The notes under the pieces are model-generated. The model did no database searches. It saw only the letters and a program-made list of their open reading frames with translations, and was not told the DNA's origin. Below are positions 4,775 to 35,275 of a DNA stretch of 35,275 nucleotides, one piece after another; positions within the stretch are counted from its first letter, which is position 1, and every line of letters starts with the position of its first letter. The translations under genes were made by a program, and so were the position numbers. The stretch is from a virus: positions 1 through 35,275 of the IMG/VR virus record IMGVR_UViG_3300042934_000462; one strand, given 5' to 3'.

Positions 4775-4803
4775 TTGACGTCAGCCATTGGTCGGCCTTA
4801 CAC
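4775..4803 (+). promoter_or_regulatory. Promoter with CCATTGG operator for gene at 4811
   Basis: TTGACG (4775-4780), 17-bp spacer holding CCATTGG (4785-4791), then TTACAC (4798-4803). The start point would coincide with ATG 4811, giving a leaderless message. It begins 3 nt after the terminase stop. Confidence 0.75.
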
Positions 4804-4810
4804 TTGACCC

Positions 4811-27318: not shown

Positions 27319-27348
27319 ACCCTAGTGGCTGACCAATGGCAATGTCAA
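27319..27348 (-). promoter_or_regulatory. Leftward promoter with CCATTGG operator
   Basis: TTGACA (27343-27348), 18-bp spacer with CCATTGG (minus strand; 27333-27339), TAGGGT (27319-27324). Transcription would start near 27312, giving a leader of about 32 nt with an RBS. Its -35 overlaps the stop codon of the upstream gene. Confidence 0.78.
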
Positions 27349-27965
27349 GCGTCAGGGCGAGTCTTGGTATGCCAATGATTGATCGCGAGCTTGAGCTTGC
27401 CGTCGAGCGCCATTTGATGCTCGTGCGCGTGGCCGGCCAGCATCGTGGCTTCATCCTTGGCGGCGTCGTAGGTGTTCGGGTGGAAGATCACGAGGTGCGA
27501 GGCGATCGTCGTGACGTCGACCGGCGGCACGTAGTAGCCCTTGCTCACATCGGTCGCCTCGCCGACGAGCTTGGCGCCGAGCACCTCGTCGAGCTTGCGC
27601 TCAACGCGATCGCGCGGGGACTCCCAGACATCGGTGCCCGGCTTCTTCGGGGGCTTGGTCTGGGCGGCGTCACCCTCGTCGATCCAACGTTGCTGTGTCT
27701 TGGTCGGGCGACCGTCGTGCGTAGTGTTCACGTGGGTCGGGCCGCGCTTGACTCGGTCGATGAGGCGGTTGAGGGCGGGGTCGGCCTTCGCCGTGCGCCG
27801 GACCTTGCCCTTGGCCGGCACCTCGCTCGACGCGGTGTGCCGGCCATCGACGACGGTGACCTTGACGACCTTGCCCTTGCGCTTGGCCTTGGTGACCGTC
27901 CATGACTTGCCCTTGAGCTCGACGTTGTCACCCTCGACGACGTCGGCCCACGTGACCTTAGCCAT
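27345..27965 (-). CDS. Hypothetical protein
   Basis: 206 residues from ATG 27965, overlapping the previous stop by 8 nt. The N-terminus (TWADVVEGDNVELKGKSWTV TKAKRKGKVVKVTVVDG, two adjoining pieces) looks like an SH3/KOW-type beta-barrel. The centre is basic and disordered. The C-terminus (VDVTTIASHLVIFHPNTYDA...; HEHQMALDGKLKLAINHWHT) is His-rich. No family recognised. Confidence 0.6.
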   Translation of the reverse strand: MAKVTWADVVEGDNVELKGKSWTVTKAKRKGKVVKVTVVDGRHTASSEVPAKGKVRRTAKADPALNRLIDRVKRGPTHVNTTHDGRPTKTQQRWIDEGDAAQTKPPKKPGTDVWESPRDRVERKLDEVLGAKLVGEATDVSKGYYVPPVDVTTIASHLVIFHPNTYDAAKDEATMLAGHAHEHQMALDGKLKLAINHWHTKTRPDA

Positions 27966-28350
27966 CGAGGTCGTCTTCCTCGCGGGCGGCGAGCACCTCG
28001 GCCAGCATCTGCCGGCGGCCCTCGGCGATGCCGGCGGCCTTGCCCTCGATGTAGCCGCGATGCTGGCCGCGCTCACCCGCCGCGGTTACACGTGCGTCCA
28101 TGAGCTTGCGGAGGCCGACGAGCTCGATGACGTGGTTGCGCGTCCTCTCGATGAGGTACTCGGCGAGGGACTCGATCGCGCGCTGCCCATCGGGCACCAT
28201 GTAGACCGTGTCGAGGGCCGCTTGGGCGTTGAACTTGATCCAGCCGCGCACTCGGATGGTGTCGGTGGCCGCGTGAATCTCGGAGGCGAAGCCGGGGAGC
28301 TCGGCCTTGAGGATGTCGACGAGGCGCTCGGCGGGGGTCTGCTCGCTCAT
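27958..28350 (-). CDS. Hypothetical protein
   Basis: 130 residues, ATGA overlap with the upstream gene. Mostly helical (AERLVDILKAELPGFASEIH; QRAIESLAEYLIERTRNHVI) with an acidic C-terminal tail (AAREEDDLDG). No family recognised. Member of the tightly coupled run 28864-27345. Confidence 0.6.
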   Translation of the reverse strand: MSEQTPAERLVDILKAELPGFASEIHAATDTIRVRGWIKFNAQAALDTVYMVPDGQRAIESLAEYLIERTRNHVIELVGLRKLMDARVTAAGERGQHRGYIEGKAAGIAEGRRQMLAEVLAAREEDDLDG

Positions 28351-28879: not shown

Positions 28880-29344
28880 TCAGTGCTGGCAGGGGACTTG
28901 GGTGCCATCCGCGAGGACCTCGCAGATGGTGTGCGCCATCGAATCCGTGGCGGGGTCGTACACCGCGCCCTCGGGCACGGTCGGCGCCGGGGCCGGCGCG
29001 GGGTCGGTGCCCTCGTCGCTCGGCTCGTCGTAGCTCTCGACGGGGGCCTCGACCGCGGCGGCCTGCTCGGCCGCGACGCGCTCGGCCTCAGCCTGAGCGG
29101 CGGCAGCCGCGGCAGCTTCGGCGGCGAGGCGGTCGGCCTCAGCCTGAGCGGCGACGACCTCCTGCTCGGCCGCGAGGCCGTTGACGTCGGTCTCGTCGAG
29201 GTCGAGGGTGAGCGCCGGGTCGGCGGTCTGGGTGACGGCGGCCGGCTCGGCGGTCACCGCGGTCGCGAGGGCCGTGCCACCGACCGCGAACGCGGCGACG
29301 ATGGCAATGCCGACGATGCCGCCGGTGATGCGTTCGGTGTTCAT
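28880..29344 (-). CDS. Membrane-anchored or secreted protein with Ala-rich coiled coil
   Basis: 154 residues. An N-terminal hydrophobic segment (about 8-31, GGIVGIAIVAAFAVGGTALA) serves as a signal or anchor. Residues 58-100 form an Ala/Glu coiled coil (QAEADRLAAEAAAAAAAQAE), then a Pro/Ala spacer and a C-terminal tip with two Cys (C141, C152) that may form a disulphide. This predicts an extracytoplasmic protein made early in infection, for example one altering the cell surface; function is unproven. The start overlaps the upstream stop (ATGA). Confidence 0.68.
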   Translation of the reverse strand: MNTERITGGIVGIAIVAAFAVGGTALATAVTAEPAAVTQTADPALTLDLDETDVNGLAAEQEVVAAQAEADRLAAEAAAAAAAQAEAERVAAEQAAAVEAPVESYDEPSDEGTDPAPAPAPTVPEGAVYDPATDSMAHTICEVLADGTQVPCQH

Positions 29345-29439
29345 TTCGTGCCTTCTCTCGTGAGGTCGGGGAGGGGGTACTCGTGGATGATGTGAGCGGT
29401 GCTCGGCTTCGGGTCCGGCTCCTCATCGTATCGGTTCAT
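29341..29439 (-). CDS. Very small hypothetical protein
   Basis: 32 residues (MNRYDEEPDPKPSTAHIIHE...), bounded by ATGA overlaps on both sides: its ATG overlaps the stop of 29436-29573, and its TGA overlaps the ATG of the secreted protein gene. Likely real because of this perfect coupling, although it may serve mainly to pass ribosomes downstream. Confidence 0.55.
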   Translation of the reverse strand: MNRYDEEPDPKPSTAHIIHEYPLPDLTREGTK

Positions 29440-29579: not shown

Positions 29580-29609
29580 AACCTAGTGGCCGACCAATGG
29601 CTTTGTCAA
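29580..29609 (-). promoter_or_regulatory. Leftward promoter with CCATTGG operator for gene at 29573
   Basis: TTGACA (29604-29609), 18-bp spacer with CCATTGG (29594-29600 on the opposite strand), TAGGTT (29580-29585). Start of transcription coincides with ATG 29573. Nearly the same spacer sequence as the 27319-27348 promoter. Confidence 0.8.
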
Positions 29610-29920
29610 GCACCAATCTCAGATTCGAGCGAGGCGGCGAGCTCTTCGAGGCGCTCGCGCCAGTCGAACGCGAGGCGGAGGGTGTCGGTGCGATACACCG
29701 CCTCCTCGACGAACTCGCGCACGAGCTCGGCCGCGTGCGCGTTGCCGCCTGCCCATCCGTGCTCGATGGCATCGCGGATGAGCATGCCGTTACCGCGAGC
29801 GGCGACGGGGTGATCGGCGAGGTACTCGGCAATGTGCGCCTCGCGCGTCGTGTGGTCGGTGGTGGCGGTGATCTTGATGACGTCGCCGGTGGCGACCTCG
29901 GTAACGACGGTGGTCTTCAT
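29606..29920 (-). CDS. Hypothetical protein divergent from RHH gene
   Basis: 104 residues. Strand-rich start (KTTVVTEVATGDVIKITATT), then helices (EAHIAEYLADHPVAARGNGM; AAELVREFVEEAVYRTDTLR). No family recognised. The start is supported by AAGGAGACCCAGCC abutting the ATG. It is transcribed away from the RHH regulator gene over a 68-nt shared control region with the ATTGGT/ACCAAT inverted repeat, so it may be directly controlled by that regulator. Confidence 0.65.
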   Translation of the reverse strand: MKTTVVTEVATGDVIKITATTDHTTREAHIAEYLADHPVAARGNGMLIRDAIEHGWAGGNAHAAELVREFVEEAVYRTDTLRLAFDWRERLEELAASLESEIGA

Positions 29921-29952: not shown

Positions 29953-29981
29953 TTGCGGCTATTGGTTGACCAATGTAGTCT
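29953..29981 (+). promoter_or_regulatory. RHH gene promoter with inverted-repeat operator
   Basis: TTGCGG (29953-29958), 17-bp spacer, TAGTCT (29976-29981). The spacer holds ATTGGT-TG-ACCAAT (29961-29974), a perfect 6-bp inverted repeat. The start point falls on ATG 29989. The location suits autorepression by blocking RNA polymerase. Confidence 0.7.
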
Positions 29982-29988
29982 ATGCACC

Positions 29989-30228
29989 ATGACCGATGCA
30001 ACCACCTCGCCCAAGCCCTCATCGCGCAAGCCCTCGGGCGCCGCGGTGGCCGGTGCCCACCCCCGCCCGACCTTCTACCCGCGGCAACTCGTCATCATGG
30101 CGACCGACGCGCTGGCCGAGGAGGTCGAGCGCCTCGCGCACGCGCGCGGGGTCTCCAAGAGCGAGATTGCTCGCACCCTCATGGAGGCCGGCCTTGCCGC
30201 CGGCGCCGCCGCGAGCAACGACGACTAG
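29989..30228 (+). CDS. Ribbon-helix-helix transcriptional regulator
   Basis: 79 residues. Residues 1-27 are disordered and basic. Residues 32-39 (RQLVIMAT) form the DNA-contacting beta strand, followed by helix A (ALAEEVERLAHARG) and helix B (SKSEIARTLMEAGLAA), a classic MetJ/Arc fold active as a dimer. It is the only rightward gene inside the leftward arm, with its own promoter and terminator. Its promoter spacer contains an inverted repeat whose half-site ATTGG recurs in six other promoters, so it is the best candidate for the regulator of that set. The ATG at 29989 is set by the leaderless promoter; an upstream in-frame start at 29950 lies before the -35 box. Confidence 0.82.
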   Translation: MTDATTSPKPSSRKPSGAAVAGAHPRPTFYPRQLVIMATDALAEEVERLAHARGVSKSEIARTLMEAGLAAGAAASNDD

Positions 30229-30254
30229 ACCCGCTCCCCCTGCCCCACAAGAGA

Positions 30255-30290
30255 CCGCCCCGCCGAGTGTTCCCCTTCTCGGCGGGGCGG
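30255..30290. terminator. Bidirectional terminator between convergent genes
   Basis: Perfect 12-bp stem CCGCCCCGCCGA / TCGGCGGGGCGG with a 12-nt loop, between the stop of the RHH gene (30228) and the stop of the leftward Cys-rich gene (30294). T-containing flanks exist on both sides, so it could act in both directions. Confidence 0.78.
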
Positions 30291-30293
30291 TTG

Positions 30294-30586: not shown

Positions 30587-30825
30587 GGCAACTTCTCCCA
30601 CGGGCCAATGCTGCCGACGTGCGCCGAGGGGTAGAGGTGCTCCCCGACCCAGCCGGTGCTTGACGTCCCCCGCCATGCGTCGTCGCCGACACGCTCCCAG
30701 ACCACGCCGTTAGGCCAGCGGATGCGAGAGCCGCGGCGGCGGGGAAGGGAGAGCACGTCGTCGAGCTCTTGCCGGGCCTCGTTGAGCTTCTTGCGAGCCC
30801 TCGCGAGCTCCTTGGGGTTCGTCAC
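30583..30825 (-). CDS. Hypothetical protein after primase
   Basis: 80 residues from GTG 30825 in a GTGA overlap with the primase stop. An N-terminal coiled coil (KELARARKKLNEARQELDDV) is followed by a strand-rich part with several Trp (IRWPNGVVWERVGDDAWRGT). No family recognised. Coupled translation suggests a role linked to replication. Confidence 0.62.
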   Translation of the reverse strand: MTNPKELARARKKLNEARQELDDVLSLPRRRGSRIRWPNGVVWERVGDDAWRGTSSTGWVGEHLYPSAHVGSIGPWEKLP

Positions 30826-33332
30826 GATCGCATCCTCGCTTCCATGTCGGCGACCTCGGGCGACATCGGCGCCGCCGGGGCCTCGGATCGGAACCGCACC
30901 CCGACCCACGCCATGGCGCGAGGCGGTATCGGCTTGATGGTGAACGGCGGCCGGGACGGCATCATGCCGCCGCCGAACTTCACTTGCCGCTTGACCACGC
31001 CGTCGAGCGAGGAGTGGCCCATGAAGCTCGACGCGATGAGTTGATCACTCCACCGTGTCTGCCCGCGCGCTTCGAGGTACGCACCGAACTCGTGATAGAG
31101 GTCGGTCGCCGCGATCGCAGAGTGCTCGTCGAGCTCCAGCCGATCGCGGATGAAGCCGAGCACGGGGTCGGCCTCCCCACGCCACTCCTCGTGCGCGGCG
31201 ACGATGTGCTTCGGCTTGGAGGGGATGCCGCGGTACGACTCCACCGCGCCCTCGACGATCCACGCGAGCACCGCGGCGGCAAGCTCGCCCTCGGCCTCGG
31301 CGAGGCGGTCGCGGAGCCCCATGTCGCCCTCGCGTTGGTTGGTGCCCGGCTTCGGGCCCAGCGCGCCGGGGTCGCCCATGCTCGGCGGGCGGTACGGCTC
31401 GACGAACTTGTACGGGAACGGCACCGGGGCAACGCGATTCCACATCGCATCATCGACGTCGGTGATGACGGGGAGGTGGTTGGTGGCACCAATCAGGGTG
31501 TGCGTCGCCCGGAACGAGTGGAAGTCCATGCGCATCCGGCGCCCGCTTAGGACGTTGGTGCCGGCGAGGAGCTTGAGGCGTTGGGCGTTGAGCCGACCGC
31601 CACGGGGAAGCTCCTCGAAGATCGCGAGGCGGGTGCCTTCGAGGGTCATAATCTCGGTCGGGTGGTCGTTGTCAGACCCGAGGAGGAGCCGCTCGGGCAC
31701 GGTCACGGCGTAGCTGCCGAGCGCGTGCCGCGTCGCGCCGAGGATGGCGCTCTTGCCGTTGTCGCCGCCGCCGATGCAGAAGGGGATGCTCTTGTCGACC
31801 GAGATGCGCCCGGTGGCGGCCTGCCCGAGGCGCACCTTGAGCCACGACCTCGTGCTCTTGGGCAACGCCTTGAGTGCCTTCTCCCAGTCGTCGAGGCGCG
31901 CGCCGGGATGATACTCGGCCGCCGCGACCTTGGTGAAGTAGTCGTCGCGGCGGCGCTCGCGAAGCTCGCCGGTGCGGAGGTCGACGACACCGTTGAGCAC
32001 GTTGAGCACATCGGGGTCGGCGTCGAGCTCGGGCGCCTCGTCGAGGAGCATGCCGGCGATGAACCGCGCCACGGCGACGACCTTGGAGCGGCCTTCGAGA
32101 AGCTTGGCATCCTGCTCGGTCTTTGCGTCGCCGCGCATGATGGCGGCCTTGGTCACGTCGGATCGGATCTTCCGCATGATCCGGCGCACGTGCTCGATGA
32201 GGAGCAACTCGTCGGCCTCGGCCCAGACGATGCCGTCGTAGCGGAGGAGGCCCACGCCGGCAACGTTCGCCCAGTCGGCGCGGATGGCCGGCAGGAGCAC
32301 CTCGGCAATCGAGGCGTCGGTGAGTTGGCCCTCACCGACGTCGATGCGGGCGACGACCCACTCGGCTTTTCGCGCGGCGTTCGCCTCCTCGATGGCCGCG
32401 GGCGAGTTGCGCTCGGCGATGGCCTTGCGCTCGGCCTTAGGCAGGTCGAGGGTGACCGGCGGAAGGCCGATGCGCTTGATCGAGCCGACGAGGGCGTTAT
32501 CCCAGTGCCGCGCAGCATCCGGCCAGTCTCGCGAGTAGGTGTCGCGGGCGACGTCGAGGGCCACGGCCACGCCGGGCGCGCCGGCCGTGCCGAGCTTCAC
32601 GAGCTCGGTGATGGCTTCGAGCATATCGTCGTGGCTCATCCCGGTCGGCTTCACGCGGGCGAGCACCTTGCGCACGGCCTTGGTCGGCTTCCCCTCGATC
32701 AGGCGCGCACGATAGGCGGCCTCGTCGGCGCTCGGCGCGGCGTCCGCAGCCTTCGCGGTCGCGTCGATGAGCACCCAGTCGGGGGCGTCGGCGAGGTCGT
32801 CGGGCGTGCGCGATCGGTCGTGCTCCCATTCGAGCTCGGGGCCGTAGTAGACGATGTAGCCGTTGCCGCCGCGCACGTCGACCCCGGCGATGCGGGCCCC
32901 GTCGTACACGAGCCCTTGCGCGTTGGTGAGGGTGCGGCCCTCGGGCGCGGCGTAGAGGTAGTGCCGGCCGCCGCCGAGGGTCTTGTAGGAGAAGGTCGGC
33001 GGCGGGACGAGGCCCGCCTTCTTGAGGTTCGCCTTGCCGTCGTCCGGCTCGCGGTCGACGTCAAGGATGACGAGGCCCGCGGCGCCGGCATGCACGCCGA
33101 CCCAGCACCCCGCCTGCTCCCCGCCCCACGCCGTCGCGATCTTCTCGGGGTCGGTGGTGGCCCAGTCGACCCACGACGTGCCGCGCGGGACGGCGGGCAC
33201 CTTGTGCCGCTTGCCGTCGTCGCCCTTGTAGATCGTGACGGGGAACACCGGCCAGCCCGCACGGGCGAGGCTGAGGGCGATGCGGAGGGTGTCGTCAGGG
33301 GAGGGCAGCTTCTTCCCGCGCCCGGCGCTCAT
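30822..33332 (-). CDS. Bifunctional primase-polymerase / D5-type SF3 helicase
   Basis: 836 residues. The N-terminal AEP-type primase-polymerase domain shows VILDVDR (D91, D93), GGRHYLY (H124) and VDVRGGNGY (D152). The middle contains the D5-N-like segment GVVDLRTGELRERRRDDYFT. The C-terminal helicase has Walker A GGGDNGKS (521-528), Walker B IFEE (571-574), a sensor-like IGATNHLP (N618) and an arginine-finger region (WNRVAP). It would prime and unwind phage DNA at the origin. No family A/B polymerase was seen, so elongation relies on the host or on this enzyme. It overlaps its neighbours by 4 nt at both ends. Confidence 0.9.
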   Translation of the reverse strand: MSAGRGKKLPSPDDTLRIALSLARAGWPVFPVTIYKGDDGKRHKVPAVPRGTSWVDWATTDPEKIATAWGGEQAGCWVGVHAGAAGLVILDVDREPDDGKANLKKAGLVPPPTFSYKTLGGGRHYLYAAPEGRTLTNAQGLVYDGARIAGVDVRGGNGYIVYYGPELEWEHDRSRTPDDLADAPDWVLIDATAKAADAAPSADEAAYRARLIEGKPTKAVRKVLARVKPTGMSHDDMLEAITELVKLGTAGAPGVAVALDVARDTYSRDWPDAARHWDNALVGSIKRIGLPPVTLDLPKAERKAIAERNSPAAIEEANAARKAEWVVARIDVGEGQLTDASIAEVLLPAIRADWANVAGVGLLRYDGIVWAEADELLLIEHVRRIMRKIRSDVTKAAIMRGDAKTEQDAKLLEGRSKVVAVARFIAGMLLDEAPELDADPDVLNVLNGVVDLRTGELRERRRDDYFTKVAAAEYHPGARLDDWEKALKALPKSTRSWLKVRLGQAATGRISVDKSIPFCIGGGDNGKSAILGATRHALGSYAVTVPERLLLGSDNDHPTEIMTLEGTRLAIFEELPRGGRLNAQRLKLLAGTNVLSGRRMRMDFHSFRATHTLIGATNHLPVITDVDDAMWNRVAPVPFPYKFVEPYRPPSMGDPGALGPKPGTNQREGDMGLRDRLAEAEGELAAAVLAWIVEGAVESYRGIPSKPKHIVAAHEEWRGEADPVLGFIRDRLELDEHSAIAATDLYHEFGAYLEARGQTRWSDQLIASSFMGHSSLDGVVKRQVKFGGGMMPSRPPFTIKPIPPRAMAWVGVRFRSEAPAAPMSPEVADMEARMRS

Positions 33333-34346: not shown

Positions 34347-34375
34347 ACTGTACGCGCCCCATTGGCTGAGGTCAA
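34347..34375 (-). promoter_or_regulatory. Leftward promoter with CCAATGG operator
   Basis: TTGACC (34370-34375), 17-bp spacer containing CCAATGG (minus-strand reading; plus-strand CCATTGG at 34360-34366), TACAGT (34347-34352). Transcription would start near 34340. Confidence 0.75.
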
Positions 34376-35019: not shown

Positions 35020-35048
35020 AGTGTACGTCGGCCAATGGTGCACGTCAA
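35020..35048 (-). promoter_or_regulatory. Leftward early promoter with CCATTGG operator
   Basis: TTGACG (35043-35048), 17-bp spacer with CCATTGG (plus-strand CCAATGG at 35032-35038), TACACT (35020-35025), then 6 nt to ATG 35013. It faces the rightward promoter at 210 across the junction region. Confidence 0.78.
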
Positions 35049-35148: not shown

Positions 35149-35275
35149 GTTGACTACCCTTATTCTCCTTGCGCAAGGATGATAGGGGTCGTACTCGCAT
35201 GAAAACGCCCCTAGGGCGTAAACCGGAAACCCCTTGCACCCCTTGCACCCTTGCACACCCCCTCTACTAAATCGC
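35149..35275. repeat. Terminal overlap, second copy of 1-127
   Basis: Exact second copy of the first 127 bases. It should be trimmed before gene counting or read mapping. After closing the circle, the region between the divergent genes at 35013 (leftward) and 245 (rightward) is continuous. Confidence 0.95.

Follow-up and report, generated by a model that had tools for sequence, protein, structure and literature searches.

Our analysis makes it quite likely that this phage encodes a small, autoregulated repressor of the ribbon-helix-helix (RHH) type that occludes promoters and has a genome-wide set of operators. Judged from the sequence, the regulator probably shuts off its own gene as well as nearly every other phage promoter by means of a tag that is present in each of these promoters. 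The window, i.e., the whole stretch of 35,275 bp from one IMG/VR virus record, consists of a structural arm that is read rightward and another arm that is read leftward. The regulator gene stands alone as a rightward gene in leftward surroundings, and the first-pass annotation of an isolated rightward unit with its own promoter was confirmed by the open reading frame and the TTGCGG-17-TAGTCT arrangement in front of it. The features of this region are:

29989-30228, + strand: open reading frame of the regulator (P0001), a 79-aa ribbon-helix-helix-type protein with a predicted strand Q33-M37, a helix at about 40-53, a G-V-S turn and a helix at about 57-77
29953-29981, + strand: regulator promoter with TTGCGG (29953-29958), the 17-bp spacer CTATTGGTTGACCAATG and TAGTCT (29976-29981)
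29959-29976, + strand: predicted operator of the regulator itself, two boxes CTATTGG-TTGA-CCAATGT
29606-29920, - strand: neighbouring gene in divergent, leftward orientation, which encodes 104 aa without a family match, start 68 bp from the regulator start
30253-30292, no strand assigned: hairpin with a 15-bp stem (z = -5.8), candidate bidirectional terminator
30822-33332, - strand: primase/polymerase/helicase, by synteny the usual neighbour of the regulator

The perfect inverted repeat described for the promoter spacer was recovered as the core palindrome ATTGGTTGACCAAT at 29961-29974 (6+6 bp, ATTGGT-TG-ACCAAT). The ATG of the regulator is located 7 nt downstream of the -10 hexamer and therefore the message is probably leaderless. 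The gene had also been credited with its own terminator; the hairpin sits between the regulator gene and the convergent primase operon, but it lacks a T-run and can only be kept as a candidate. A hairpin of equal strength and other sequence is present at the matching position of the relative G002. A search against Rfam returned no family.

At up to three mismatches the palindrome has 7 matches in comparison to 0.48 expected, and this number was reached in none of 100 shuffles. The earlier argument that the other promoters share an ATTGG half-site is weak as written, because the bare 5-mer is not enriched in the window (26 versus 26.5 expected). What can be retained is an extended box, CCAWTGG, which is present in all six other promoters; instead of an inverted half-site, the arrangement is better seen as a pair of 7-bp boxes that flank a 4-bp centre and lie 11 bp from each other. 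The window contains exactly six copies of CCAWTGG (1.95 expected anywhere in the 35,275 bp) and every copy (220, 4785, 27333, 29594, 34359 and 35032, i.e., in both arms) is located in a -35/-10 spacer. Furthermore, all five promoters found by a search for TTGAC + TANNNT, which was blind to the operator, contain the box. The six promoters are:

210-238, + strand: first rightward promoter of the structural arm, box CCATTGG at 220-226 in the spacer
4775-4804, + strand: rightward promoter after terL, box at 4785-4791 plus a partial second box
27319-27348, - strand: promoter in front of the exonuclease operon, read leftward, with the two-box operator CCATTGG-TCAG-CCACTAG
29580-29609, - strand: leftward promoter, two-box operator CCATTGG-TCGG-CCACTAG
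34347-34375, - strand: leftward promoter with only one clear box, CCAATGG, which is on the promoter strand
35020-35048, - strand: leftward promoter at the right end, box CCATTGG-CCGA-

Two clear boxes are thus found in three promoters of the window, that of the regulator and the two with CCATTGG-TCRG-CCACTAG. In the remaining four only one box is clear and its partner is degenerate, which counts against the repressor model. A start codon follows the -10 hexamer after 6-7 nt at six of the seven promoters (210, 4775, 29609, 29953, 34375 and 35048; the exception is 27348), and the messages from these six are probably leaderless. A promoter placed similarly to 27319-27348 is also present in the phages OscarSo, Isperia and Wyvern.

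The arrangement of the boxes follows a simple geometry. In 37 promoters from nine genomes, a set that includes kin and hence no independent samples, bases at a lag of 11 agree at 0.40 compared with 0.23 in shuffles, which served as baseline instead of a control set of unrelated promoters (z 7.8). No other lag in this set was comparable and the agreement remains at 0.39 when each genome contributes a single promoter. The dyad symmetry of the boxes is highest at a gap of 4 bp. With a period of 11 bp, two adjacent RHH dimers, one helical turn apart, would fit on the same face of the DNA. In G005, G006 and G009 the regulator promoter is overlapped or directly adjoined by a leftward promoter of consensus type, so that a single control region serves both directions.

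An orthologue of the regulator is encoded in 11 of 11 complete or near-complete genomes of the group: the window, its closest named relatives, which are the Microbacterium phages OscarSo, Isperia and Wyvern, the IMG/VR relatives G001, G002, G004, G005, G006 and G009, and G007, a scaffold of 35.4 kb from a Frankiales MAG. No match was found in the partial contig G003. OscarSo gp47 is annotated as an RHH DNA-binding domain protein and has the same place and orientation as the regulator of the window. In Isperia (27854-28282, +) and Wyvern (29003-29419, +) the orthologue is present and not annotated in GenBank; a direct tblastn with the window protein missed both, and an alignment recovered them together with G004, G005 and G006. 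Genes called antisense across the RHH gene are gp42 in Isperia (L004 26951-28198) and gp43 in Wyvern (L005 28652-29335), and the arginine-rich N-termini of these two calls look spurious. The regulator is opposite in direction to the adjoining primase in every genome where both were placed; G009 has the regulator, yet the primase of the window finds no homologue there. The proteins of OscarSo, Isperia and Wyvern are direct orthologues in synteny, but they are longer (129-142 aa versus 79 aa) and carry a second RHH-like segment in tandem (L003 29432-29821, L004 27854-28282 and L005 29003-29419), whereas the window protein has one; residues 70-101 of the Isperia regulator match RHH_1 (E 0.014). 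Between the window and Isperia/Wyvern the major capsid proteins are 87-88% identical, the regulators only 33-38%, and the operators are unlike. A megablast of the right arm of the window against phages gave no match. A scan of 85k genomes for capsid and terminase revealed no close relative beyond the MAG scaffold G007 and one distant Streptomyces locus; capsid relatives were not found in bacterial genomes, and plasmids contained only one 28% Vibrio match. The Streptomyces locus (S. capoamus NZ_BNBF01000017.1, L043) has a terminase with 53% identity inside a 207-kb bacterial contig and is possibly an integrated relative or a satellite; a convincing RHH orthologue was not detected at this locus.

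In most genomes the promoter of the regulator and other promoters have a common word, and this word differs from genome to genome. The following operator words and site counts are based on patterns that were picked after the sites had been seen:

G006: CTAGTKG-CYGA-CMACTAG, 6 sites, shuffle mean 0
G005: CTAGTTG-N6-CAACTAG, 4 sites, shuffle mean 0.03
G004: CTAACAGCCGA, 4 sites, shuffle mean 0.3
OscarSo: CYACTAT-N4-CCACTAK, 3 sites, shuffle mean 0
Isperia and Wyvern: GTGAGTA, 3 sites in Isperia with shuffle mean 0.13, weak in Wyvern
G009: CCTAACGASTATG, two copies at the regulator promoter and a further one at a different leftward promoter
G001: GTTGGCKCGCCAAK, only two sites

In each foreign genome these words have 0-2 matches, and higher cross-matching is restricted to the group of the window, G002 and G006. 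A label permutation confirmed that the operators of the regulator resemble promoters of the same genome more than foreign ones (p = 0.003). Two genomes were blind to the model: G009, fetched once the model was fixed, fits in operator sharing, with boxes about 23 bp apart and not 11, and G007 shows no clear fit. Sites that are few or degenerate in Wyvern, G001 and G007 count against the repressor model. Sharing of k-mers over whole genomes was also tried as a comparison of own and foreign operators and was dropped as too noisy. Box and matching protein are specific to each related phage, which would mean that the protein/operator pairs coevolve. The predicted binding of the regulator to the boxes is supported by their joint conservation and joint change, and the first-pass claim of autoregulation through an operator common to the promoters of the phage is well supported by the 11 orthologues, the genome-specific words and the 11-bp phasing, as far as sequence comparison can tell. 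A glutamine at position 33 accompanies TTG-containing boxes (7/7 versus 0/4, an association picked post hoc) and according to the trees this label must have changed at least twice; the tie between residue and box is only suggestive.

The assignment of the window protein to the RHH family, also part of the first-pass annotation, stands in a weaker form. Matches to Pfam RHH_1 (E 0.0017) and to a PHROG family of Arc-like repressors (E 0.0014) argue for it, but the Pfam score of 18.7 bits is below the curated cut-off of 20.5; the assignment is sub-threshold and the matches of sequence and fold are RHH-like though weak. In a profile comparison with Arc/CopG (hhalign), Q33-V35-M37 of the window protein align with the DNA-contacting strand of Arc, and Q33 falls on Arc Q9; the similarity is weak. 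In the AlphaFold model of the window protein, a monomer, helix 1 runs through the expected strand, which counts against an RHH fold; VIA-align on this model gave Z<5, which is not informative. The model of the orthologue L002 is extended at 11-20 with helices at 21-34 and 38-58, which corresponds to strand-helix-turn-helix, and its top Foldseek matches include many RHH proteins, all with E>1. A sequence search of solved structures returned no credible match for the regulator.

Taken together, we propose the following mechanism. Dimers of the regulator would bind the 7-bp boxes, and two boxes with 4 bp between them and centres 11 bp apart would form one operator within the -35/-10 spacer, where the two bound dimers would block RNA polymerase; the spacer-centred sites in combination with the near-consensus hexamers point to such an occlusion. 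With boxes at its own promoter and at the promoters of both arms, a rising level of the regulator would first restrict its further production and the leftward promoters with two boxes (27348 and 29609), and afterwards the one-box promoters. We infer negative autoregulation and a repression that is graded by the number of boxes.

The box is present in both arms and also in the first structural promoter, a distribution that would be compatible with a carrier-state repressor as well as with a brake acting during infection. For the role of the regulator, our leading guess is that it slows transcription in the course of infection, as a Cro/Arc-like brake; this reading takes first place solely because no means of persistence was detected. 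In the same network the regulator could instead act as an immunity or carrier-state repressor, which keeps the genome silent and non-integrated and excludes superinfecting phages with the matching operator word. We regard this as a tentative possibility. The operators in both arms are in line with it, and the divergence of regulators and operators behind a conserved capsid resembles the evolution of immunity specificity known from Cluster A (PMC6550527). Furthermore, the archaeal virus regulator F55, an RHH protein, is a precedent for a carrier-state switch (PMC5569661), and the 35.4-kb relative was found in a bacterial MAG. On the other hand, integrases, partition genes, HTH and CI-like domains are absent among the 25 of 26 Pfam families listed for the 73 open reading frames of the window (E≤0.05), and the genome scan and the plasmids, with the few matches described above, also argue against persistence. 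The genome combines one property of a temperate repressor, predicted operators at phage promoters with specificity diverging among relatives, with a lack of integration and partition machinery among these families. That a phage family without integrase and partition genes has repeatedly switched, between close relatives, the specificity of one RHH immunity or carrier-state repressor together with its complete operator set (up to seven promoters) is a similarly tentative possibility. The same Pfam result bears out the first-pass statement that neither a CI-like repressor nor an integrase is present; the further suggestion that the regulator is the only transcription switch agrees with the lack of another recognised regulator or integrase, but small unrecognised proteins remain. 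A marginal Sigma70_ECF match in the window has E=0.032.

The boxes might also belong to another, unrecognised protein of phage or host, with the RHH gene as just another regulated gene. As the link between regulator and boxes is itself deduced and many small open reading frames have no recognised family, this deserves consideration, but we think it rather unlikely: the 11-bp phasing and the RHH-like residues agree with the regulator, which is the sole recognised DNA-binding regulator in the window and is conserved in all 11 genomes. A host factor is unlikely because the box is wholly different in OscarSo and Isperia/Wyvern, though all three infect Microbacterium. The same difference makes it improbable that the boxes are a core promoter element recognised by sigma factor or RNA polymerase. 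The near-fixed position of the box in almost all promoters speaks for such an element or an activating protein, but near-consensus hexamers and spacers of 17-18 bp are already present in most of them, and we give this reading, activation included, very little weight. An RHH antitoxin of a toxin-antitoxin pair, suggested by Foldseek matches that include VapB, MazE and TacA, is hardly credible: the regulator is monocistronic with the hairpin directly after it, the window contains no co-directional partner or co-operonic toxin gene, and the operators are dispersed over the genome.

The predicted repressor resembles Arc and Mnt of P22 and the CopG plasmid repressors, which are small autoregulated RHH proteins with two dimers on adjacent subsites. 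These act at one or two operators, whereas the regulator of the window would serve seven promoters in both arms. To our knowledge, no control module has been described so far for these phages. The small RHH regulators F55 of the Sulfolobus virus SSV1 and SvtR of SIRV1 occlude their own promoter and several other viral promoters, and F55 maintains the carrier state (PMC5569661). The likeness drawn here is a functional one, a small RHH-type protein predicted at its own and several other viral promoters. F55 and SvtR act at archaeal promoters (BRE/TATA/start site), whereas our sites lie in -35/-10 spacers of a bacterial tailed phage, with boxes in nearly all promoters and no integration or induction known. 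One repressor with many related sites across an actinophage genome and diverging specificity is also reminiscent of the stoperators of Cluster A phages, for which a divergence of immunity specificity has been described (PMC6550527). However, the L5-type repressor is a monomer that binds an asymmetric site and also stops elongation (PMC9283540, PMC6550527), whereas the phage analysed here has an RHH-type protein, two-box or dyad sites with 11-bp phasing that are confined to promoter spacers (6/6 CCAWTGG), and no integration or partition genes were found among the Pfam families listed. Repressors of the RHH type, global RHH regulators of viruses and operators dispersed over a genome are each already known. 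For bacterial tailed phages that lack an integrase, our literature search revealed no RHH network that spans the promoters and has coevolving operators, which does not prove that none exists. The regulator would supply a control module for these phages and account for a conserved gene that is not annotated in two GenBank records. The predicted whole-phage regulon comprises the protein, seven promoters and an operator grammar, and ten natural protein/operator variants allow a direct test of how a repressor and all its operators shift specificity jointly.

Positions 1-127 and 35149-35275 of the window are identical over 127 bp; the same applies to G007 (127 bp) and G004 (123 bp). Because this length matches a common assembler k-mer, the identity probably reflects an overlap from the assembly of a map that is circular or terminally redundant, and not a biological repeat. 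A large inverted repeat, ACCCTTATTCTCCTTGCGCAAGGATGATAGGGGT, is located at 35155-35190 and repeated near 7-42, and could be a packaging or replication site.
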